Shown: in pieces, positions 49,929 to 64,000 of the stretch
Position numbering within the stretch: position 1 is the stretch's first letter
How the letters are laid out: each line of letters begins with the position of its first letter
Assembly: GCA_900457075.1 (NCBI GenBank)
Contig: UGYN01000002.1
Location: 4,278,001 to 4,342,000 of the forward strand
Direction of reading: 5' to 3'
DNA length: 64,000 nt
From: Serratia quinivorans
Lineage (GTDB): Bacteria > Pseudomonadota > Gammaproteobacteria > Enterobacterales > Enterobacteriaceae
The notes under the pieces: generated by a model
Databases searched by the model: none
Seen by the model: only the letters and a program-made list of their open reading frames with translations
Told to the model about the DNA's origin: nothing
Made by a program: the position numbers and the translations under genes

Positions 49929-50120
49929 CTTCCTGCGCTCTGATAGTGGGCCGCCGGCTCACTATCAGGCATCTCCCCACGGCTTAAATTTTCTCTCAGC
50001 AAAACAGATTGCTGCAGTTTTTTTATGCTTAATTACCTTTCATAGCCTGCTAATTAAATATTTAACTCCGACGCCGAGCCTATAGCATAGAAAAATAATA
50101 ATTATGTTATGGCGAGGTTA

Positions 50121-51543
50121 ATGGTGAGTGATGTTTTGGTTGCAGGAAGCGATGCGGTGGCCCAGTCACCGATCCATGAACAGGATTTGTCAGCAAGAAT
50201 TGATGCGTTGCCGACCTCGGCCGGTCTGTGGAAGTTTATCGCTTTGCTGGCGTTGGGCGGTTTTTTTTGAGCTTTATGACCTGTTCCAGACCGGCTATAT
50301 CAGCACCGGTTTAATTGCCGAGGGGATATTCCATACCGGCGCGCAAGGCGTGTTCGGCGTCTCCGACCAGGCGGCGTTTGCCTCCGCCACCTTCCTTGGC
50401 CTGTTTATCGGTGCCAGCCTGCTCAGCCCCTACGCCGACCGTTTTGGCCGCCGCACCACCTTTATGTTTGCGCTGGCCTGGTATGGCGTGTTTTCGCTCT
50501 GCCTGGCCTTTCAGCATCAGGCAGAGTGGGTGATCTTCCTGCGCTTTCTGGTGGGAGTCGGATTGGGGATTGAACTGGTCACCATAGATACCTATCTGAC
50601 TGAGTGGGTGCCTGCGCATCTGCGTACCCGGGCCTTTGCCTTTTCGTTTTTCATTCAATTTCTGTCGGTGCCAACGGTCGCGTTGATGTCGTGGTGGCTG
50701 GTACCACAGACCATTTTGGGTCTGAGCGGCTGGCGTTATGTGGTGATCGCCGGTGCCGTGGCTTCACTGGTGATTTGGCTGGTGCGTAAAGGCTTGCCGG
50801 AATCCCCGCGTTGGCTGGCGCAGCAGCGACGTTACCCGGAGGTCAGGCAGGTAATGCTGGCGATGGAGCGTCGTTGCGGTGTTACCCAGGTGACGGAATT
50901 CCCGTTGCGTGATGCCGAATCAGCGAGCGAAACGCCCGCGCAGGGAAGCTTTAAAGATATCTGGTCGCCTCGTTACCGGGGCCGCACCCTGATGCTGGTG
51001 GTGATGAATTTCTTCCAGGCGATTGGTTTCTTCGGTTTTGGCAACTGGCTGCCGGCCTTACTGGCCGGAAAGGGCGCTTCAATCACCCACAGTCTGCTGT
51101 ACGCCTTCTTTATTACCCTGGCTTATCCGCTGGGATCATTGCTGTGCAGTCGCTATGCCGACAAGATGGAAAACAAATGGCAGATTGTTCTTTCCTGCCT
51201 GGTGACGGTGATTTTCGGCTCGCTGTTTGCCATGCAGAATAATCCCCTGTGGCTGATTCTGTGCGGGTTCTTCATTACCTGGTCCAATGCCTGGCTGACC
51301 TACAGTTACCACTCCTACCAGTCAGAAGTGTTCCCGACTTATATCCGCGCCCGTGCGGTCGGATTCTGTTATTCGTTCAGCCGATTGTCGACGGTATTCA
51401 GCAGCCTGATTATTGGCATGATCCTGCAATACGGCGGTTCGGTAGGGGTGATTGCGTTTATCGTTGCCAGCATGCTGATTGTGATGGTGGTGATCGGGGT
51501 GTTTGGTCCAAAAACTCGCGGTATCGATCTGGAAAATATCTGA
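50121..51543 (+). CDS. MFS transporter of the metabolite:H+ symporter/sugar-porter type (one frameshift)
   Basis: The true start is ATG 50121 (GGCGAGG site), MVSDVLVAGSDAVAQS. One T must be removed from the eight-T run at 50261-50268 to read LALGGFFELYDLFQTGYIS and join the main frame; ~473 residues. The A-motif YADRFGRRTT, ESPRWLAQQRR after helix 6, and SYADKMENKW-type second loop are clear. Similar to AaeA/YdjE-like aromatic acid or metabolite symporters; substrate unknown. Stand-alone gene. Confidence 0.82.
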
Positions 51544-51548
51544 CCGAG

Positions 51549-51578
51549 CCACCCGGCGTTGCGCATTGAGACAACGCC
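51549..51578. terminator. Stem-loop between convergent MFS and katG genes
   Basis: CCCGGCGTTG-CGCATTGAGA-CAACGCCGGG; no long T-run, so moderate confidence as a terminator for both strands. Confidence 0.55.
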
Positions 51579-51600
51579 GGGATCTTCATGCTGTTATTAC

Positions 51601-54419
<2,819 letters not shown>

Positions 54420-55313
54420 ATGCTTGGTAATATTCATAACGTTGATATCCGATTGTTACAGATATTTTTGACCATAGTGCAGTGTAATGGATTCTCGGCC
54501 GCTCAGGCACAGCTGAATATGAGCCAGTCCGCCATCAGTACATGTATGTCGACTCTGGAGACGCGTCTGGGCTTTCGCCTCTGTGAACGGGGTAAAAAAG
54601 GATTCAGTCTGACAGCGGAAGGGGAACAGGTGCTGTGTTATACACAACAACTGTTCGCCAAATTAGATGCTTTTGTTTTACAGGTTCATAACCTTTCAGG
54701 GCGGTTACGCGGCGAGTTAATGATCGGTCTGTTAGACAGCACATTGACGTTGCCCGAAGCAAAAGTAGTTGAGGCAATAAGACGTTTTTATCAGCGTAAT
54801 CATGAGGTAAGTCTGCAGGTTTTTATTAAATCACCAACGGAACTTGAACAAGAAATTATCAGCGGCGAACTGCATGCGGCGATATCTTATATTGGACACA
54901 GATTAGAAAACCTTGAGTATATCGATCTCTTCAGTGAAAAAATTTCAATCTATTGCGGAAAGCACCATCCGCTGTATTTATCATCAAAAGTGACCTCCGA
55001 GGACTTACTGCGCTTCAGTTGGGTGAAGCGTGGCTATCTGATGCCGTCGGATTTAGTGCCTGTAATGCCGCCACTAATCACTGCCACGGCCCACCAGATG
55101 GAGGCTGTCGCCTTACTGGTTTTGGCAGGGACACACATTGGCTATCTGCCGCAACATTATGCTCAGCAGTGGGTTGATAAACAGGAAATGTACTTGCTGA
55201 AATCTGAAGAATTAAGCTATGAGGTGACTCACTGCCTTATTCTTAACCGAAGTCGCCCGCATAATGAAGCACTCGAAGCCCTGGTTTCTGACATTCTTCT
55301 GGAACATGGATGA
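54420..55313 (+). CDS. LysR-type regulator at head of carbamoyltransferase island
   Basis: 297 residues, ATG after AAGGAGGGG. HTH at about 8-66 (RLLQIFLTIVQCNGFSAAQA, MSQSAISTCMSTLETRLGF) and an effector domain. AT-richer than the core genes around katG. Transcribed in the same direction as, and ~200 bp ahead of, the carbamoyltransferase gene, so it likely activates the island in response to its substrate. Confidence 0.8.
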   Translation: MLGNIHNVDIRLLQIFLTIVQCNGFSAAQAQLNMSQSAISTCMSTLETRLGFRLCERGKKGFSLTAEGEQVLCYTQQLFAKLDAFVLQVHNLSGRLRGELMIGLLDSTLTLPEAKVVEAIRRFYQRNHEVSLQVFIKSPTELEQEIISGELHAAISYIGHRLENLEYIDLFSEKISIYCGKHHPLYLSSKVTSEDLLRFSWVKRGYLMPSDLVPVMPPLITATAHQMEAVALLVLAGTHIGYLPQHYAQQWVDKQEMYLLKSEELSYEVTHCLILNRSRPHNEALEALVSDILLEHG

Positions 55314-55521
55314 CCCTACTAAAAATAATGCATACTTATATTACAACGCTTTCCGGTTAAACATTCATAAATGATAAAGTCAGCTTTGTTTTATATCTAT
55401 TGTTAGCTATGTATTTCAGTCTTACGCTCAGTGGCACATCAGTAAATATTCAGATGGGTACAGTGGCTGGAATGCTGCTATCCGTAAAATGGGCGTTTTA
55501 CCAAACATCGAGGGATATGAA

Positions 55522-56460
55522 ATGAGAGATAAATTTCGCGCCAGACACTATCTTGCCATGCAGGATTATACAGCGGAAGAGATCCGTTATTTGGTCGAGC
55601 TGGCAACCGATTTAAAACGCAAATGGACCATGCGTGAGCCACATGAATATTTACGTGGGCGTACCTATGGCATGATTTTCGAAAAAAAATCTACGCGTAC
55701 CCGTAATTCCTTCCATGCCGCCGCAACGGCGCTGGGGGCTCAGTCTATCTATCTGCGACCGGATGAAATGCAACTCAGCCGTGGCGAGCCAATTAAAGAT
55801 ACCGCACGCATTATTGATCGCTATTTTGATGGTTTGTATATCCGAACTTATGGACAGGAAATTGTTCAGGAGTTTGCGCAATACATGAAAAATCCGGTGA
55901 TTAACGCGTTAACGGCGCTGGAACATCCTTGCCAGGGGCTGGCCGACCTTCTGACCATTAAAGAAAAATTTGGTGAATGGAAAGGGGTAAAAGTCTGTTA
56001 TGCCGGCGATGTCTATAACGTCTGTCATTCCCTGATGATCGGCTGCGGCATGATGGGAATGGATATTTACGTTGCTGCCCCTGAAGGGTACGAACCCGTA
56101 CCGGAAATTCTGGCCTGTGCGCAGCAACACGCGGCGAAAAGCGGTTCCAAAGTCATCGTGACCCGGGACTTCGACGAGGCGCTGCGTGGAGCTGATGTGG
56201 TATATGGCAACACCTGGCATAGCATGGGTGAAAACGAAGCCCAGAAAGAAAAACGCATTCAAGACTTTATGCCGTACCAGATCAACGCCCAGGCAATGGC
56301 GAAAGCGCGTAAAACGGCGGTCTTCATGCATTGCCTGCCGGGTTACCGTGGCGAAGATATGACAGACGAAGTCATTGAAGGGCCACAGTCCGTGGTGTGG
56401 GATCAGGGTGAAAACCGCATGCACACCGTGAAGGCCGTTATGGTGGCTACGGCGGTCTAG
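55522..56460 (+). CDS. Ornithine-carbamoyltransferase-like enzyme, acceptor site altered
   Basis: 312 residues from MRDKFRARHY. Carbamoyl-phosphate motif KKSTRTR (about 56-61), HPCQ (about 136-139) and HCLP (about 271-274) are intact, so transcarbamoylation is expected. The OTC acceptor-side segments differ: GDVYNVCHS where OTCs have a paired Asn (GDGNNV.HS/NS), and GNTWHSMG where OTCs have an Asp before the SMG loop (TDTW.SMG). In human OTC that Asp (D263) contacts the ornithine alpha-amino group. The acceptor is therefore perhaps not ornithine. With carbamate kinase downstream it probably works in the catabolic direction, yielding carbamoyl phosphate. Confidence 0.8.
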   Translation: MRDKFRARHYLAMQDYTAEEIRYLVELATDLKRKWTMREPHEYLRGRTYGMIFEKKSTRTRNSFHAAATALGAQSIYLRPDEMQLSRGEPIKDTARIIDRYFDGLYIRTYGQEIVQEFAQYMKNPVINALTALEHPCQGLADLLTIKEKFGEWKGVKVCYAGDVYNVCHSLMIGCGMMGMDIYVAAPEGYEPVPEILACAQQHAAKSGSKVIVTRDFDEALRGADVVYGNTWHSMGENEAQKEKRIQDFMPYQINAQAMAKARKTAVFMHCLPGYRGEDMTDEVIEGPQSVVWDQGENRMHTVKAVMVATAV

Positions 56461-56568
56461 CATTCCGGCTCAAAGGCGAGGGAGCCAAAATTCTGGCTCC
56501 TCCGCGTAATGCCGTCAGATATCACTTCTACTTTTAGTCGCCATCCGTACTTCACTAAGGAGTTTGTT

Positions 56569-58017
56569 ATGAGCCAATCTGTGGAGAATAAAACACATCT
56601 AAAAAAAGCCATTACCTTCAATGGTTTCTTGGGGATGGGTATTGGCTGCGTGTTTGGTGCTTCCTGGTTGGTACTTACCGGCACCTGGCTAAGCACCGCC
56701 GGTGGCCCATCCAATGCGGCACTGGCCATTTTGCTCTGCCTTCTCATTGAGCTTCCCCTGGCGCTGGCTTATCTGGAAGCCATCTCGGCGGTTCCGTTGG
56801 CAGGCGGAGAGGCTGCGTATTCTTGCCTTGCCTTCGGTAGTTTTGCCGCGATGATTGCCGGATGGTTCGGCGTGTTGGTGAATATCATTTTATGCGCCTG
56901 GGAAGCGCTGGCGATCACCACCATGCTGGGCTACCTGCTGCCTTCCATGAAGAGTGCGGCGATTCTCTATGAGGTCGGCGGGTTTGCGGTCAGTGCTCCA
57001 TTATTGATTATCGGGCTGTTACTTGTCGCGGGGATCGGCATGATGCAGCACCGGGGGGTAAAACTTTCATCAACGTTACAGACGGTCATTACAGTGACTG
57101 TTTTAACCCTGGTTATCGTCTCGCTGATTGCATGTTCATTCTATATCAACCTTGAAAATCTCAGCCCGTTACAGAGCAAACCGACCTTTGCCGGCGTGGT
57201 GGCTCTGCTGGCGCTCCTGCCATTTTCTATTGCCGGATGGGAAACCATAGCCAAGGGGGCGGAAGAAGCCTCTGCCAGCCTAAGCCGTAAAAAAACCGCT
57301 CTCGCTTTGATTATCTCTCTGGTCATCGCCACCTTTATGTATCTGATTACCATGCTGGTTCCTTCGGCCATTGTGCCGTGGCAAAGCCTGATGACCATGG
57401 ATATCCCCTTTGCTCATGCAGCAGAAATAGTGACAGGTACGCCAGTTTGGGGGTTGGTATTAACGGCGGCTGCTTGCTGCGGAGTCGTGGGTGTTTATAA
57501 CGCCTGTTTTTATGGCGCAACTCGTTTACTCATGTATATGAGCCAGGTGGGTTTAATTCCGGCCGCTTTCTCCCGGTTGCACCCGGTTTACCATACGCCA
57601 ACGGTAGCCATCCTTTTCGTTTCATTAATAGCCGCTTCTGCCTGTCTGCTGGGTAAAGCCGTGTTTCTCCCACTGGTCACCGTGGCCGCTTTTTCCTACA
57701 TCGTCTTGTGGGGGTCAACGCTGTTTTCCGTGATGCGACTGCGGAAATTGCGCCCTGAGCTTCCGCGCCCACTTCCCACTCCGGGAGGAAAATTCACCCT
57801 GGCTGTGGGGGCCATTGTGACTCTGCTTATGGCTGCGGCCATGTTGTTTCCTGGCAGCCCGGCGTCGCTTAAGTGGCCCTATGAGCATCTGCTATTGGGT
57901 GTGCTGCTGGTGATTGGCATGATCCTCTATTTGTTGCGGGATAAATCTGTTTCCGGAGAGGAACAGGCCAAATTGATACTGGAAAATATTCCTACCGAAA
58001 TAGTGAAAAAAGACTGA
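56569..58017 (+). CDS. APC-family amino acid/amine permease
   Basis: 482 residues, ATG 56569 after TAAGGAG. ~12 membrane helices; helix 1 carries FLGMGIGCVFGASWLVLTG, a Gly-rich substrate-binding break, and helix 6 has LLPFSIAGWETIAKGAEEA. The tail is cytosolic and charged. Likely importer or exchanger of the guanidino or amino substrate or product of the island. Not close enough to AdiC, ArcD or PotE to name. Confidence 0.82.
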   Translation: MSQSVENKTHLKKAITFNGFLGMGIGCVFGASWLVLTGTWLSTAGGPSNAALAILLCLLIELPLALAYLEAISAVPLAGGEAAYSCLAFGSFAAMIAGWFGVLVNIILCAWEALAITTMLGYLLPSMKSAAILYEVGGFAVSAPLLIIGLLLVAGIGMMQHRGVKLSSTLQTVITVTVLTLVIVSLIACSFYINLENLSPLQSKPTFAGVVALLALLPFSIAGWETIAKGAEEASASLSRKKTALALIISLVIATFMYLITMLVPSAIVPWQSLMTMDIPFAHAAEIVTGTPVWGLVLTAAACCGVVGVYNACFYGATRLLMYMSQVGLIPAAFSRLHPVYHTPTVAILFVSLIAASACLLGKAVFLPLVTVAAFSYIVLWGSTLFSVMRLRKLRPELPRPLPTPGGKFTLAVGAIVTLLMAAAMLFPGSPASLKWPYEHLLLGVLLVIGMILYLLRDKSVSGEEQAKLILENIPTEIVKKD

Positions 58018-58112
58018 CTACTCAATATAGGCATTCGGATTAATTCTGTACTCATATCGATGAAAATACCCTGAATGTATCTTGTGAAATAAAGATAATT
58101 AAGAGGTTAAAA

Positions 58113-58964
58113 ATGGAAAGAAGCTATGTAAAAAATGCAACTAATAGACTGAAGAAGGTTTTATTATGTCCACCAAAACATTTTTCATTCCAGCCTATTA
58201 ATGTCATTACTGAAGACTGGCTGGAAAAAGGCGAGTCAGCCGATATTAGCGCATTTCGGCGCGAACATGATGCGCTGGTTCAGGCTTATCGCGAAAACGG
58301 CGTTGAAGTGGTATTGATGGATCCTGATCCTGAGCTTCCTTATCAGGTTTATGCGCGCGATTTCGGTGCCTGTGTCGCGGAAGGCTTCATTATGGGGAGG
58401 TTTCGCGAACCTTGCCGGCAGGGGGAAACGGCAACTTATGAGGCCAAGATGAAACAGCTTGGTATCCCCTGCGTTGCACGCTGTACCAGTGGGGCATTTG
58501 AGGGCGGTGATTTCTGGATGATAGATGAGCACACTATTGCTCAGGGCGTAGTGGCAAGAACGGACTATGACGGCTACAAGAACATTGAACGCCAGATGTG
58601 GGAACTGGGTTACACCATGGTACCTATATTCTGTAAGCGTGAAAATCTTCACCTGGACATGTGCTTTAATATTGTTGCAGAGAAAGTCGCGGTCGTTTGC
58701 AAAGCCGCGCTTCCCGATGAGTTTTTAAATCTGCTTGCCAGAAGAAAATTCACCCTGATTGATGTTCCGCAACAGGGGGTATTCCGCCATCATTGTAATT
58801 TGCAGGCATTGGGTGATGACCGGGTACTGACCTTCAAAAATAATAAAGAGACCAACCAGCAACTTGCTGCTTTGGGAATTAAAACCATTGAAATTGAATT
58901 GGAGGAAATTCTCAAAGGTGGCGGTGGGCCTCACTGCATGACTTTCCCATTAGAACGGGCATGA
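58113..58964 (+). CDS. Amidinotransferase-fold hydrolase (DDAH/arginine-deiminase superfamily)
   Basis: 283 residues, AAGAGG site. Pentein-fold motifs: PYQVYARDFGACV, FEGGDFWMID, catalytic His180 in HLDMCFN and nucleophile Cys275 in GGGGPHCMT. The length suits dimethylarginine dimethylaminohydrolase-type enzymes (~255-285) rather than arginine deiminase (~410) or agmatine deiminase (~365). It should hydrolyse a guanidino substrate to a ureido product plus amine or ammonia. Placed before carbamate kinase and after the carbamoyltransferase and permease, it is the likely first step. Confidence 0.82.
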   Translation: MERSYVKNATNRLKKVLLCPPKHFSFQPINVITEDWLEKGESADISAFRREHDALVQAYRENGVEVVLMDPDPELPYQVYARDFGACVAEGFIMGRFREPCRQGETATYEAKMKQLGIPCVARCTSGAFEGGDFWMIDEHTIAQGVVARTDYDGYKNIERQMWELGYTMVPIFCKRENLHLDMCFNIVAEKVAVVCKAALPDEFLNLLARRKFTLIDVPQQGVFRHHCNLQALGDDRVLTFKNNKETNQQLAALGIKTIEIELEEILKGGGGPHCMTFPLERA

Positions 58965-59036
58965 AATAGTCAGCCATCTAAAGGGGAGGGTAGGGCTTCC
59001 CCTTTCTTATCTGTCAGGGAACAGGAGAGGATAATT

Positions 59037-59964
59037 ATGAGAATACTTATAGCATTAGGCGGCAATGCGCTATTAAAACGTGGGGAAGCCATGACTGCGG
59101 AAAACCAGCGGCGAAATGTCGTTATAGCCTGTGAAGCTATTTCCCGTCTGGATGGCAAACACCAGATAATTATCAGCCATGGAAATGGGCCACAGGTAGG
59201 ATTATTAGCACTGCAGTCTGAGTCCTACGCCGATAAAGTTGAGCCCTATCCTTTTGATGTTTTTGGGCGCGGAAAGCCAGGGGATGATTGGTTACATGCT
59301 GGAGCAGGAGCTACGTAATCATATGCCCGGCAGGCAGGTTGCCTGTTTGTTGACTCAGGTAGAGGTTGATATCAACGATCCTGCAGTCAAACAACCCAAT
59401 AAATTTATTGGGCCGGTCTATAACGAAGAACAGGCCAAAAAATTAATGCAGGAAAAAGGCTGGATAATAAAACCGGATGGTAAATATTACCGCCGCGTTG
59501 TTCCCAGCCCACAGCCATTGGCGATCGTCGAAATTGAGACATTACGCACGCTGGTGAACAATGATGTGATTGTTATTGCCGGCGGCGGTGGTGGTATCCC
59601 GGTCACCACCCTCAGTTCGCAAAGCCGTGGGCTGGAGGCCGTTATAGACAAAGACCGTTGCTGCAGCCTAATGGCTCAGCAGCTGGATGTTGACTTACTG
59701 ATTATCGCGACCGACGTCAGCAGAGTTTTCACTGATTTTGGCACGGTGGACAGCAAAGCAATTAAAGCCGCTAATCCACACGCACTGCTTGAAATGGATT
59801 TTCCGGCAGGTTCAATGTGGCCCAAGATCCAGGCTACGTGTGAGTTTTCTATCAATAGCGGCAGATCGGCAGTGATCGGATCGCTGGAGGACATTGTTGA
59901 TATGGTCGATGGACGGACGGGAACCTTGATCAATAAAGATATTGATGGCGTGGCGTTTCACTGA
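59037..59964 (+). CDS. Carbamate kinase (one frameshift)
   Basis: ATG 59037 behind [39 protein letters not shown], then after removing one T at 59260-59264 ([18 protein letters not shown]) the rest: [51 protein letters not shown]. 308 residues, normal length. Makes ATP from carbamoyl phosphate and ADP. The last enzyme of an ADI- or agmatine-type fermentation route; here it pairs with the carbamoyltransferase of the island. Confidence 0.9.
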
Positions 59965-60065
59965 CGAGCACCTTAAAGCTCGTTGATTACACATGGGTGT
60001 ACCAGATATTGGCACCGCGGCTATTCCGGGCCATCAGCCAAAGCGACATGGCAAAGGAGACAATT

Positions 60066-61445
60066 GTGGTTATTGATCTCTCCCTCATTGGGCTTTACTT
60101 GTTATTGGTGTTAGGCGTGGGGTGGCTGGGCTGGAAGCGCGCAAAAACGCGAGATGATTATGCCGTGGCGGGCAGGCGTCTCGCGCCGTTGATGTTCACC
60201 GGGACTATGGCCACGACGGTGCTTGGCGGTGCGGCAACCATGGGCAGTATGGGGCTCGGCTATCAATATGGTATCTCTGGGTTATGGCTGGCAACCAGCC
60301 TGGGAATGGGGCTCATTGGTCTGAGCTTGTTTCTGGTTACCCCGTTGTTGAAACTCAATTTGCACACCGTAACTCAGGTTCTGGCGATCCGTTATCGTCC
60401 CCGTGTTCGTTTGTTGGGAGCGGCTATTATGATGGTCTATGACCTAATGGTTGCGGTTACTTCCATTATCGCCATAGGCAGCATTATCGAGGTTTTGTTG
60501 GGCATCCCCTTTCTGTATGCCATCTGGATCGGTGGCGGGGTGGTGGTTATTTATGTTTTTCTGGGGGGGATGTGGTCATTAACCATGACTGATATTTTTC
60601 AGTTTACTATGATGACGGTCGGAATACTTTTTATCTTAATGCCTGCCAGTATTATTCATGCCGGTGGTTGGCAAAATATGCAGGATATTTTACCAGAGGG
60701 TTTCTTCTCTCTGAACAATATTGGCTTACCGAATATCGTTACTTATTTTTTAATCTACTGCCTGGGAATGTTTATCGGGCAGGACATCTGGCAACGCATG
60801 TTTACCGCACGAAGTGCCGGCGTTGCTCGCTGGGGAGGCTTCGTCGCCGGGGTTTATTGTATTGTCTGGGGCGTGATGGGGGCAGTTATCGGCATGAGTT
60901 GTCGGGTGTTTTTGCCCGATATTGGCAACCCGGATGCCGTATTCATGAGCGCCGTACAGACGGTGCTTCCCGTAGGCCTTCGGGGGATTGTCATTGCTGC
61001 TTCACTCGCGGCACTCATGTCTACAGCCAGCGCCTGCATGATGGCGACCTCAACCCTGTTTGTTTATGATATTTATGCCGCTTTATTTAAGAAAGAAAAA
61101 TGTTCAATTAAAACAGACCGCTGCGCAACCCTGGCCTTTGGTTTCACTATACTGATCATCGCCAGTTTGATTGGCGATGTTATTACTGCGCTGACTGTCG
61201 CTTATACCATTCTGGTTGGCGTGCTGTTGGTCCCCCTGATTGGAGCCATTTGTTGGCAAAGGTCTTCAACCACCGGGGCGATATCGGCAATGGTGTCCAG
61301 TGCTATCATCATCATCTATTTTATGGCCAGATACGGAATGCAGGCTAACAGTGTGACCTATTACGGGCTGTTGGCGAATCTGGTGACCTTCGTGACAATA
61401 AGCCTGTTATGGCCTGATTTTCGGACACCAACCCCGCAGAATTAA
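60066..61445 (+). CDS. Sodium:solute symporter (SSS family)
   Basis: GTG 60066 is preferred because AAGGAG lies 7 bases upstream; ATG 60048 is the alternative. 459 residues, 13 helices expected; GRRLAPLMFTGTMATTVLGG, GFVAGVYCIVWG and the SSS-type AASLAALMSTASACMMATSTL (Na2-site region). Co-directional with carbamate kinase after ~100 bp. A second transporter of the island, so it may import the starting compound while the APC carrier moves another. Confidence 0.82.
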   Translation: MVIDLSLIGLYLLLVLGVGWLGWKRAKTRDDYAVAGRRLAPLMFTGTMATTVLGGAATMGSMGLGYQYGISGLWLATSLGMGLIGLSLFLVTPLLKLNLHTVTQVLAIRYRPRVRLLGAAIMMVYDLMVAVTSIIAIGSIIEVLLGIPFLYAIWIGGGVVVIYVFLGGMWSLTMTDIFQFTMMTVGILFILMPASIIHAGGWQNMQDILPEGFFSLNNIGLPNIVTYFLIYCLGMFIGQDIWQRMFTARSAGVARWGGFVAGVYCIVWGVMGAVIGMSCRVFLPDIGNPDAVFMSAVQTVLPVGLRGIVIAASLAALMSTASACMMATSTLFVYDIYAALFKKEKCSIKTDRCATLAFGFTILIIASLIGDVITALTVAYTILVGVLLVPLIGAICWQRSSTTGAISAMVSSAIIIIYFMARYGMQANSVTYYGLLANLVTFVTISLLWPDFRTPTPQN

Positions 61446-61453
61446 TCGGAAAC

Positions 61454-62014
61454 TCAATTCTCGTGGGCTTCCTTACTGAGAATTCGGGAGCGGCAAATGT
61501 CCAAAATCTCATCTGCCAGCGCAGAGTCATCAGGGCAGGCGCGGGACAGCACCAGAGCACCGACAAGATGTGCGATGGTATCGATCAGGTCGGCACGCGT
61601 TAAGTCACCTTCGCCATTTTCATTGGCTAACAGAGCCAGCTGACGTTCAATGCCAGCCGCAAACGTCGCCTTAATCGATTCAGATTGGCGTGCCGTATCA
61701 GTACCTAGTGCCGACATCACACAACCCTTGCCCATATCATCACGATGCTGGCGGGAGAGATAGTTTTCAACAAATTGTTCCCGGTTCACACCCGCCGTAT
61801 TTTCTGCGGATTGCGTAAAACCACAGCTCATCGCCTCCGCCATCAAATCAGCCTTGGAAGCAAAGTGCTTATAGAACCCGCCGTGAGTTAAACCTGCCGC
61901 AGACATCAGCTCTGCTACACCCACGCCGTCATAGCCTCGCTCACGAAACAACGCTGAAGCTGTTTCAACAATACGTATTCGGTTTGCACGAACCTGCTCT
62001 TTAGAAACCCTCAT
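61454..62014 (-). CDS. TetR-family repressor
   Basis: 186 residues from MRVSKEQVRANR (ATG 62012-62014, AGAGG site). HTH SALFRERGYDGVGVAELMSAAGLTHGGFYKHF-type, residues ~10-58; the C-terminal ligand domain has Cys in GKGCVMSAL, typical of the YcdC/AcrR-like group near reductases. Divergent from an SDR and a quinone-reductase gene; the large inverted repeat between them is the probable operator. Confidence 0.85.
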   Translation of the reverse strand: MRVSKEQVRANRIRIVETASALFRERGYDGVGVAELMSAAGLTHGGFYKHFASKADLMAEAMSCGFTQSAENTAGVNREQFVENYLSRQHRDDMGKGCVMSALGTDTARQSESIKATFAAGIERQLALLANENGEGDLTRADLIDTIAHLVGALVLSRACPDDSALADEILDICRSRILSKEAHEN

Positions 62015-62053
62015 TGCTCTGCCTCTTCTCCTAAAACTCATGTCGTAAGTATA

Positions 62054-62112
62054 CATTGATGATGATCGTAATCAAACGGATTGACTTTTTAGATTATGAT
62101 CATCATCATTGC
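62054..62112. promoter_or_regulatory. 20-bp inverted-repeat operator between tetR and SDR genes
   Basis: CATTGATGATGATCGTAATC (62054-62073) and its near-perfect reverse complement (about 62092-62111) flank 18 bp of AT-rich DNA that could hold a promoter. Symmetric, large and centred between the divergent genes; probably bound by the TetR protein as two dimers. Confidence 0.7.
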
Positions 62113-62199
62113 GATGGTCCCGTTAGCCACCACTATCAGGGTTCTACAGACATCGCAGTTTGCGAATTTTATTTACTCATTGATAAAGAAGGGTATTCC

Positions 62200-62982
62200 A
62201 TGACCAAACCAACAGTTCTGATTACAGGCGCTTCCACAGGCATTGGCGCCGTATACGCTGAACGGTTCGCACGCCGGGGCCATGACCTGGTTCTGGTCGC
62301 CCGCGACAAGACAAAACTTGATAGCCTTGCCGAGCAGTTGAGACAAGAAAGCGGTATTGCCGTCGACGTTCTGCCTGCTGACCTCACGCAAGCGGATGAT
62401 TTAGCGGCTGTTGAAGCTCGTTTACGTGATGACACGCGGATAGGCATTCTTATCAATAACGCGGGTATCGCGCAGTCGGGCAGCTTTATAGAGCAGACGT
62501 CTGATTCAATTGAGCAGCTTATCGCGCTTAATGTGACGGCTTTAACCCGACTGGCTAATGCTGTGACGCCACGGTTTGTGCTGGCTGGCGAGGGCGCTAT
62601 CGTCAACATCAGTTCCGTCGTCGGGCTCGCCCCTGAATTTGCAATGTCGGTTTATGGCGCAACCAAAGCCTTTGTTCTGTTCCTGTCTCAGGGCATGAAT
62701 ATTGAGCTGTCGCAGAAGGGGGTTTATGTTCAGGCAGTGCTCCCTGCCGGGACTTATACGGAAATTTGGCAACGTGCAGGTATCGACACCAACGCTTTGC
62801 CCCAAATGATGGAAGTGGGCGAATTGGTTGATGCAGCCTTGGTTGGTTTTGATCGGCGTGAACTCGTTACCATCCCACCTTTGCAGAATGCCGCACGTTG
62901 GGACAACCTCGATGCTGCGCGTCAGACCCTGCTATCGGATATCAAACAAGATGAAGCCGCAGAGCGATATAAAACCCTTTAG
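62200..62982 (+). CDS. Classical short-chain dehydrogenase/reductase
   Basis: 260 residues from MTKPTVLITGAS (ATG 62200, GAAGGG site); the longer frame upstream runs through the operator and is rejected. Motifs GASTGIGA (residues 9-16), NNAGIAQSG, Ser in VNISSVVG, and YGATK. Probable NADPH-dependent carbonyl reductase. Followed by the quinone-reductase-like gene with a ~60-bp gap; both are likely TetR-regulated electrophile or quinone detoxification genes. Confidence 0.88.
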   Translation: MTKPTVLITGASTGIGAVYAERFARRGHDLVLVARDKTKLDSLAEQLRQESGIAVDVLPADLTQADDLAAVEARLRDDTRIGILINNAGIAQSGSFIEQTSDSIEQLIALNVTALTRLANAVTPRFVLAGEGAIVNISSVVGLAPEFAMSVYGATKAFVLFLSQGMNIELSQKGVYVQAVLPAGTYTEIWQRAGIDTNALPQMMEVGELVDAALVGFDRRELVTIPPLQNAARWDNLDAARQTLLSDIKQDEAAERYKTL

Positions 62983-63042
62983 ACAATAAAGGGAACTGCT
63001 CAGAACAATCGTTCAGCTGCCTGCACGGCAGGGGAAAAATAA

Positions 63043-64000
63043 ATGAATAATAAGACGATGAAAGCCTTCACGTTTAAGCGTTACGGTAAATCTCCTGAAT
63101 TAGGGTTTGATAACGTAGATTATCCTCCTCTCAAGGCTAATGAAGTCTTGGTTAAAGTTTACGCTGCGGGCCTAAATCCAATCGACAATATGATCCCAAC
63201 CGGAATATTTAAGCCGGTTCTGCATTTTAAGCTTCCCGCAACATTGGGTAGCGATCTGTCTGGGGTTGTTATTGCCGTGGGAAGTCGCGTGACTCGTTTT
63301 TCCCCAGGCGATGAAATCTTCGCCAGCATCTTCGATACGGGAACGGGGTCTCTTGCCGAATTTGCCGTGGTGCCTGAGAGCGCTGTGGCTATAAAACCGG
63401 CAAATCTGGATTTTGTGCAGGCGGCTTCGCTCCCTATGGTTAGCCTTACGTCCTGGCAAGCTCTGACCGAGCGTGTCAGGCTACGGCCTGGTCAGAAGGT
63501 TTTCATCCCGGCAGGTTCTGGAGGAATAGGCACCGTTGCTATCCAACTGGCGAAGCAATTGGGCGCAACCGTGGGGACGACAACCAGTACGGGCAATATC
63601 GAATGGGTGAGGAGCCTGGGGGCTGACGAAGTCGTTGACTATAAAAAAGAAGAGTTCGAAAAAGTATTGGCTGGCTATGATGTGGTACTTGGCACCACCA
63701 GGGGAGATATGATTGAAAAATCCACCCAGATCCTTAAGCCTGGAGGAAGTATTGTTTCTCTCGTCGGGCCGTTAGATGTCAAATTTGCGCGGGCTAGAGG
63801 GTTAAATTTCTTTCTGACTTTTATCTTCAGGCTTATGAGCCGCAATATTATGCGTCTTTCAAAAAAGCGGGGCTTGACCTATACGTTTCTATTCGTTCGG
63901 CCAGAAGGTGATCAACTCAGCCAGATAGGTAAACTGGTAGAAACCGAACAAATCAAACCCATGATCGACAAGGTATTCCCCTTTGCTCAAACAAAGGAGG
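63043..64000 (+). CDS. Zinc-free MDR, quinone/NADPH oxidoreductase (cut by window end)
   Basis: ATG 63043 after AGGGGAAAA. 319 residues seen and the frame is open to the window end. GroES-like N-terminal domain (AAGLNPIDNM, LGSDLSGVVIAVG), nucleotide loop GSGGIGTVAIQLAKQLGA and LGADEVVDYKKEEF. The C-terminal part shows PMIDKVFPFAQT. No structural-zinc cysteines, so it is of the QOR/zeta-crystallin class. Likely same operon as the SDR. Confidence 0.88.
   Translation, partial: MNNKTMKAFTFKRYGKSPELGFDNVDYPPLKANEVLVKVYAAGLNPIDNMIPTGIFKPVLHFKLPATLGSDLSGVVIAVGSRVTRFSPGDEIFASIFDTGTGSLAEFAVVPESAVAIKPANLDFVQAASLPMVSLTSWQALTERVRLRPGQKVFIPAGSGGIGTVAIQLAKQLGATVGTTTSTGNIEWVRSLGADEVVDYKKEEFEKVLAGYDVVLGTTRGDMIEKSTQILKPGGSIVSLVGPLDVKFARARGLNFFLTFIFRLMSRNIMRLSKKRGLTYTFLFVRPEGDQLSQIGKLVETEQIKPMIDKVFPFAQTKE

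Follow-up and report, generated by a model that had tools for sequence, protein, structure and literature searches.

The window analyzed here is a stretch of 64,000 nucleotides from Serratia quinivorans, and the system in question is an island of six genes that lie in a row on the + strand between positions 54420 and 61445, with gaps of about 70-210 bases according to the ORF list and the family scans. They encode a LysR-family regulator, an ornithine carbamoyltransferase (OTC)-like protein, a permease of the APC superfamily, a hydrolase with the fold of arginine deiminase (ADI) and dimethylarginine dimethylaminohydrolase (DDAH), a carbamate kinase and a sodium:solute symporter (SSS). As far as the sequences can tell, the island probably encodes a third route of the deiminase/transcarbamylase/carbamate kinase type, which would use an omega-guanidino carboxylate that has no free alpha-amine. 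This degree of confidence applies to the kind of pathway and to the substrate class, which by itself is likely, and not to argininate, the candidate discussed below. By the tests made on the sequences, the system is neither the ADI nor the agmatine deiminase (AgDI) nor the DDAH system. The original prediction, made from the DNA alone, had described six consecutive and co-directional genes, as we found them, and had proposed that they form such a route with a guanidino compound in place of arginine. The latter proposal agrees with the apparent absence of the alpha-amine residue from both enzymes and with the presence of arcA in 20 of 34 related genomes.

The hydrolase contains the catalytic residues Cys275, His180, Glu130, Asp83 and Asp182, and the first four of these are conserved. 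Arg102 and Arg149 are located on the carboxylate side and Tyr77 at the amine-contact position. An AlphaFold2 model with a mean pLDDT of 93.2 was closest in the PDB to the folds of NnhA, ArgZ, AGAT, DDAH and ADI. None of the NCBIfam equivalogs was reached above its cut-off: the hydrolase scored 75.2 bits with the arcA model TIGR01078 (cut-off 489.1), 92.2, 60.5 and 59.8 bits with the dimethylargininase equivalogs (cut-offs 300, 340 and 450) and 62.1 bits with the arginine dihydrolase (ArgZ/AgrE) model NF052232 (cut-off 450). A first enzyme of the agmatine deiminase type was not found, as the Pfam scan of the hydrolase gave ADI and DDAH_eukar and nothing else. For comparison we used 34 related loci, some of them from metagenome assemblies, which were collected by similarity to the hydrolase alone. 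The hydrolase of the window and those of the 34 related loci have the ADI-type motif HLD, and not HLK, and so do all 55 rows of the alignment. The Asp of HLD holds the guanidino group in ADIs, whereas DDAHs have a Lys that gives room for methyl groups (PMC11659421). Judged by its active site, the hydrolase is of the arginine deiminase type and not of the methylarginine type. The earlier label 'DDAH-like' therefore holds for the size of the protein but not for its active site with HLD.

The residue that meets the amine of the substrate is Asp60 in DDAH and Asn155 in ADI (PMC3474736, PMC11659421). The corresponding position, six residues ahead of Asp83, was mapped by alignment and by the six-residue spacing common to the families. 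In all 29 hydrolases that are linked to an OTC-like gene the amine-contact residue is gone and replaced by Val (21 cases), Tyr (6 cases, the window type and locus L109) or Ile (2 cases). The carboxylate arginines are retained in the same proteins, Arg102 in 28 of 29 and Arg149 in all 29. Among relatives whose stretch, as far as read, contains no OTC gene, the amine-contact position is occupied by Asp (L150-L152), Glu (L157-L159), Asn (L149, L154) or His (L156), and in the Moritella relatives by Ser.

In OTCs, the Asp of the motif DxxxSMG contacts the alpha-amine of the substrate. The transferase of the window reads NTWHSMG at this site, with Lys55 (in FEKKSTRT) and Asn166 kept. Ornithine is bound by DxxxSMG (Asp231, Ser235 and Met236 in E. 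coli), Asn167 and Lys53 (PMC4581275), and the Lys, which is a Gln in putrescine transcarbamylase (PTC), helps to neutralise the carboxylate of ornithine (PMC3282769). The Asp is absent from 28 of 28 aligned operon transferases, with Asn in 18 and Met in 10 of them, and the Lys and the Asn are kept throughout; beyond these 28, L109 has Asn and L169 has Met. The Ser of SMG is also replaced, by Ala, in the Coriobacterial clade. With its Lys55 and NTWHSMG, the window transferase does not carry the signature of PTCs, in which Gln replaces the Lys and DVWYGLY is found, and the score with TIGR04384 was 297 bits against a cut-off of 500.

The other members of the family in the same genomes were read as a control. 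Among 30 OTC loci that were fetched, all 28 non-operon OTCs contain the Asp, and the remaining two are operon genes. A further 31 OTC-family matches were fetched, lower-scoring ones being left aside, and 30 of these were readable: the Asp is present in 7 of 7 OTC-type (Lys/Asn) and in 16 of 16 PTC-type (Gln/Gln) sequences, six are of odd types (Asp in three; Ser, Lys and Gly in the rest), and one, near a contig end, is of the operon type with Met. Taken together, the Asp is present in every OTC-type paralogue (35 of 35) and in every putrescine-type one (16 of 16), and an OTC with Asp is encoded elsewhere in the genome of the window. In the tree the operon transferases form two clades, of 18 and 10 rows, with the canonical OTCs between them. 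Forcing the operon transferases into a single clade cost 64 log units and was rejected (p-AU 2.9e-13); the constrained run left out two long-branched canonical rows, and a long-branch warning was given in both runs. Because of these two separate clades, the amine-binding Asp was most likely lost twice, convergently, beside the same hydrolase.

The OTC family is large in some of these organisms. The Coriobacterial genomes G023, G026 and G031 contain 8-10 OTC-family matches each (loci L181, L184, L185, L188, L190 and L111), and four matches of G023 are located inside 18 kb in L111. Some of the Coriobacterial motifs fit neither OTC nor PTC, and L189 of G005 (Syntrophomonadaceae) is likewise odd. 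It is possible, from their motifs, that these odd genes encode further undescribed transcarbamylases.

In the proposed pathway, the SSS and APC carriers would import an omega-guanidino carboxylic acid without a free alpha-amino group and may swap it for the product. The cysteine hydrolase, whose fold and catalytic residues are described above, would deiminate it to an omega-ureido acid and ammonia, and the variant transcarbamylase would split the ureido acid by phosphorolysis, giving carbamoyl phosphate and an omega-amino acid. The latter step rests on the residues of the transferase, with the carbamoyl phosphate and carboxylate side kept and the amine-side Asp lost. The carbamate kinase, assigned by family, would then provide ATP, ammonia and CO2 by the established reaction of such enzymes. 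Since the carboxylate contacts are kept and the amine contacts lost, the substrate would be an omega-guanidino acid that bears no free amine at the alpha position; a guanidino acid was one of three substrates named in the original prediction and is the one favoured here.

In 27 of the 34 related loci, which come from enterobacteria, Lactobacillales, Clostridia and Coriobacteria, the hydrolase is accompanied by an OTC-like gene; such a gene is missing just in the type D loci, in L005 and in L021 and L035, which are cut by contig ends. The four loci of type A (L003, L004, L006, L007) contain genes for the OTC-like protein, the APC permease, the hydrolase, carbamate kinase and SSS in varying order, with a LysR or PucR-like regulator. 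In type B (15 loci from Klebsiella, Lactobacillales, Lachnospiraceae and Actinomycetaceae) we mostly found a PucR-like regulator, the OTC-like protein, a YfcC-like carrier, the hydrolase and a 2-hydroxyacid dehydrogenase, sometimes with carbamate kinase and SSS. Type C (10 loci, Coriobacteria and L016) is built as type B but with an ArcB-like transferase, type D (4 loci, Moritella) combines the hydrolase with CtlX and ornithine cyclodeaminase without an OTC gene, and in L005 the hydrolase stands alone. A gene of the 2-hydroxyacid dehydrogenase family is present in 24 of the 25 type B and C loci, and SSS-family genes occur in 13 of 36 loci compared, which are the 34 plus L078 and L079. The canonical arcA was counted where it scored over its cut-off.

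The search was extended to larger samples. Of 398 Bacillota genomes, four matched at E<=1e-60, and two of these were already known. At E<=1e-50 matches were found in 4 of 391 genomes in the class of G007 and in 33 of 398 in the class of G009, the centre genomes included, and in the order of G084 the only one of eight genomes with a match was G084 itself. Larger stretches were taken from G084, G068, G781 (three places), G763 and G655 and from 7 of the 33 G009-class matches. The neighbouring genes there were named from BLAST comparisons with reference proteins and in part from family scans, the labels ABC transporter and non-ribosomal peptide synthetase (NRPS) being given by eye; the reading of the 14-kb stretch of G068 was limited to L078. 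Locus L109 has a run of genes for Ldh_2, a Gate-domain carrier, the OTC-like protein (with Asn), carbamate kinase, the hydrolase, a LarA-family protein, a D-2-hydroxyacid dehydrogenase, a class-III aminotransferase and an aldehyde:ferredoxin oxidoreductase.

If all the loci are considered together, argininate (2-hydroxy-5-guanidinovalerate), or else a 2-hydroxy compound closely related to it, is the most likely substrate of the system. Argininate is favoured because of the D-2-hydroxyacid dehydrogenases in related operons, to which L109 adds a LarA-family racemase, Ldh_2 and the class-III aminotransferase. The chain would lead from argininate via 2-hydroxy-5-ureidovalerate, 5-amino-2-hydroxyvalerate, 2-hydroxyglutarate semialdehyde and 2-hydroxyglutarate to 2-oxoglutarate, and would employ all of the enzymes of this kind named for L109, the aldehyde:ferredoxin oxidoreductase included. 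Only tentatively do we extend this to a third carbamoyl phosphate pathway for argininate in gut Coriobacteria, Lactobacillales, Clostridia and some enterobacteria, with a transcarbamylase that arose twice from OTCs by loss of the same amine-binding Asp and a deiminase that lost the matching contact.

A number of observations, given here and with the first two alternatives below, weigh against the proposed pathway or its likeliest substrate. Carbamate kinase is present in just 14 of the 36 loci compared. L109 has His at the position of Arg102, and Tyr at the amine-contact position also occurs in L005, L148, L153 and L155, without an OTC gene in the stretch read. The odd non-operon paralogues L184, L189 and L190 (three of the six) lack the Asp too, but they also lack the Lys. 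The dehydrogenase of L010 and the LarA of L109 match their own NCBIfam families below the cut-offs.

The main alternative to argininate comes from within the same substrate class and uses the same three steps: an unsubstituted omega-guanidino acid, in the first place 4-guanidinobutyrate, which would yield gamma-aminobutyrate (GABA), or 5-guanidinovalerate, which would yield 5-aminovalerate. In that case, the hydroxyacid enzymes found in other lineages would have their role in another branch of the family. Loss of the alpha-amine contact with retention of the carboxylate contact in both enzymes fits such acids too, and the bulky Tyr77 could occupy the space of an absent or shorter part of the substrate. 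The operons of the window type (the window, L003, L004, L006 and L007) gave no match to a hydroxyacid dehydrogenase, the window operon itself being free of any 2-hydroxyacid enzyme, and in L148 a hydrolase 72% identical to that of the window lies beside a GABA transaminase over the NCBIfam cut-off (543.9 against 506.65), a neighbour that by its family fits 4-guanidinobutyrate better. Against this stand the dehydrogenase genes of the type B and C loci and the three kinds of 2-hydroxyacid enzyme in L109, and matches to OTC and carbamate kinase were both absent from the 18-kb stretch of L148. On balance we regard an unsubstituted acid as rather unlikely.

It is improbable that the island encodes an ordinary arginine deiminase pathway with a short hydrolase in the place of ArcA and a catabolic OTC. 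The catalytic residues are of the ADI type, and the transferase passed the cut-off of the OTC family TIGR00658 (396.7 bits against 280.85); it is also conceivable that the Asn which replaces the Asp binds an amine. The Moritella relative, 49% identical, has CtlX and ornithine cyclodeaminase beside it, both over the cut-off in L027, which suggests, by the families of the neighbours, an alpha-amino substrate there. A Pfam search for ADI in the genome of the window gave this gene alone, although the same search missed a DDAH that a protein search detected, so that a Pfam miss is weak evidence of absence. An ordinary pathway is difficult to reconcile with the loss of the DxxxSMG Asp in two separate clades, with the missing amine-contact residue of the hydrolase, and with the arcA genes and Asp-bearing OTCs alongside in the carriers.

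Two further substrates of the original prediction are disfavoured. A methylarginine pathway (asymmetric dimethylarginine or N-monomethylarginine) with DDAH as first enzyme would fit the size of the hydrolase, its DDAH_eukar match and the source annotation 'dimethylarginine dimethylaminohydrolase family', but it is very improbable in view of HLD in all aligned rows, the dimethylargininase scores of 60-92 against cut-offs of 300-450, a separate DDAH with FPDAHFVED and HLK elsewhere in the genome, and a transferase that would be expected to be a normal OTC. Agmatine-like or other guanidino amines without a carboxylate, for which the three-enzyme logic is known in the case of agmatine (PMC3282769), are hardly to be expected: the carboxylate-neutralising residue is Lys in 28 of 28 operon transferases and Gln in PTCs, the carboxylate arginines of the hydrolase are kept, and 16 separate PTC-type genes (Q/Q/DVWYGLY) occur in the same genomes.

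The carbamate kinase of the original prediction stands by family and position, but not as an intact gene, as a one-base frame change between about 59254 and 59267 had been missed. The kinase of L003 is intact with 308 aa, and its residues 1-77 and 67-308 align with the window in two different frames. The frame may have been changed by a genuine mutation, or a homopolymer run may have been misread in sequencing. Elsewhere in the genome, the search for a carbamate kinase yielded a single fragment with a weak score of 19.8 bits. If the break is not a sequencing error, the last step of the pathway is probably impaired in this strain, to judge from the reading frame. A programmed frameshift was considered and rejected, as the kinase of L003 is a single intact frame. 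A terminator-like hairpin of 10 pairs lies between the hydrolase and the carbamate kinase (58980-59005) and might reduce expression of the kinase. Terminator-like sites were commoner than in shuffled sequences (19 against 8.5), and promoter-like sites were not enriched (12 against a shuffle mean of 11.7). Control by a riboswitch was rejected: Rfam gave no match in window 50000-64000, and in 9 of the 34 related loci that were searched it gave just one tetrahydrofolate (THF) riboswitch and two tRNAs.

Table 1. Genes of the island and extent of the stretch missing from a congener, in window coordinates.
Feature	Position	Strand	Basis
LysR-family regulator	54420..55313	+	Pfam HTH_1 and LysR_substrate
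OTC-like carbamoyltransferase, 312 aa	55522..56460	+	TIGR00658; NTWHSMG replaces DxWxSMG
APC-superfamily permease	56569..58017	+	PF13520
ADI/DDAH-fold hydrolase, 283 aa	58113..58964	+	PF19420 138 bits, PF02274 106 bits
Carbamate kinase, frame broken	59037..59964	+	carbamate kinase matches in two pieces, each in another frame
Sodium:solute symporter (SSS)	60048..61445	+	PF00474 136 bits
Stretch missing from congener G054 (L074), flanks abutting	54144..61381		blastn, window 53000-63500 against L074

The start of the permease gene was chosen by eye for its ribosome site, the longer ORF beginning at 56509, and for the SSS gene a GTG at 60066 has, also by eye, the better ribosome site. The permease is 54-96% identical to those of L003, L004, L006 and L007. 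The regulator is 95% identical in L003 and 58% in L004, and it reached the cut-off of none of the 25 NCBIfam families shown among 52 matched. The island is flanked by a catalase-peroxidase-like gene (51601-53799, - strand, named by eye) and a TetR-family gene (61454-62056, - strand). Its G+C content is 48.3% in 54144-61381 and 55.0% in the remaining window. The nearest named copy, L003 of Serratia proteamaculans, has the same flanks and is 93% identical in DNA over window 53000-63500. Within the genus, 2 of the 30 genomes had a close copy of the hydrolase, namely that of the window and one with coordinates matching the genome of L003. In the comparison with L074 homology stops at 54143 and restarts at 61382. 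G054 has the flanks adjacent, but its DNA still matches the SSS gene over the final 64 bases, so that a deletion probably removed the operon in this congener. Synonymous and nonsynonymous differences between the window and L003 were 45:16 for LysR, 80:18 for APC and 36:8 for the hydrolase; the count covers these three genes, the script having found no offset for the OTC-like and SSS genes. Judged by its conservation and not by a statistical test, the island is not a chance grouping. Spread by plasmids was rejected, since all 29 plasmid records matched were below 60% identity, the nearest being Enterococcus mundtii with 52%.

Several relatives of the hydrolase were found outside such operons. 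In the Moritella loci L027, L030, L031 and L032 the genes for CtlX, the hydrolase and ornithine cyclodeaminase lie close together (families were scanned in L027), an arrangement of genes that suggests an arginine-to-proline route. The loci L149 and L154-L156 contain a common protein of 540-572 aa, 39-54% identical among themselves, and no OTC or carbamate kinase gene in the stretch. In a scan of L149 and L156 this protein was M20-like, over the Pfam cut-off in L149 and slightly below it in L156. The neighbourhoods (L149:1075-9901, L154:4976-9515, L155:8223-14535, L156:8095-13972) each include a 2-hydroxyacid-dehydrogenase-like gene and in three of four cases a GABA-type aminotransferase, and L149 has in addition a D-amino-acid-transaminase-like gene (under the cut-off) and an iron alcohol dehydrogenase. 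In L153:7414-8636 a carbamoylase/allantoate-amidohydrolase-like gene, split in two ORFs, adjoins a hydrolase relative with 64% identity and is followed by an aldehyde dehydrogenase and a cyclase-family gene. The step common to the family may be formation of a ureido compound, followed by phosphorolysis or hydrolysis, and the M20-like and carbamoylase-like neighbours would fit this. A distant relative (33%) in L157:8860-17874 lies beside a 2712-aa ORF that looks NRPS-like by eye. The relative in L078 (G068), with two internal stop codons and flanked by two YheC/D-type ATP-grasp genes, is apparently a pseudogene.

A description of the pathway was not found in titles and abstract openings of the open-licence literature, which does not show that it is absent from print. 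If the proposed pathway is true, the labels 'ornithine carbamoyltransferase' and 'dimethylarginine dimethylaminohydrolase family' on these genes are wrong, and a guanidino acid, possibly argininate, would be assigned to these bacteria as an energy source. A third transcarbamylase class would be distinguished from OTC and PTC by the kept Lys and Asn and by the exchange of Asp for Asn or Met. The convergent loss of one residue would give a simple sequence signature and make the question of the substrate directly testable.

The island resembles the known systems in different respects. It shares with the ADI system (arcABCD) the grouping of a deiminase, a transcarbamylase, a carbamate kinase (in the window with a broken frame, in L003 intact) and a carrier in one operon, the Cys/His/Glu chemistry with the Asp in HLD and the expected yield of one ATP. 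In contrast to ArcA with about 410 aa, its hydrolase has 283 aa and is far under the arcA cut-off, its transferase is without the Asp of DxxxSMG, and arcA is found elsewhere in 20 of 34 carriers. With the AgDI system (aguBDAC) it has in common a three-enzyme carbamoyl phosphate route and an OTC-like transferase that was re-specified; PTC, however, exchanges the carboxylate Lys for Gln and has DVWYGLY, whereas the island keeps the Lys and loses the amine-side Asp, and the hydrolase belongs to another family. The likeness to DDAH lies in the size, the single-domain amidinotransferase fold and the equivalents of R85 and R132, and the differences are HLD for HLK, RD for ED at the guanidino Asp and the replacement of the amine-contact Asp by Tyr, Val or Ile in the OTC-linked members. 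Finally, the N-terminal domain of ArgZ is close in fold to the predicted structure of the hydrolase (TM 0.82-0.87), but the dihydrolase model gave 62 bits against a cut-off of 450, and direct formation of ornithine, as by ArgZ/AgrE, would leave the OTC-like transferase and the carbamate kinase superfluous.

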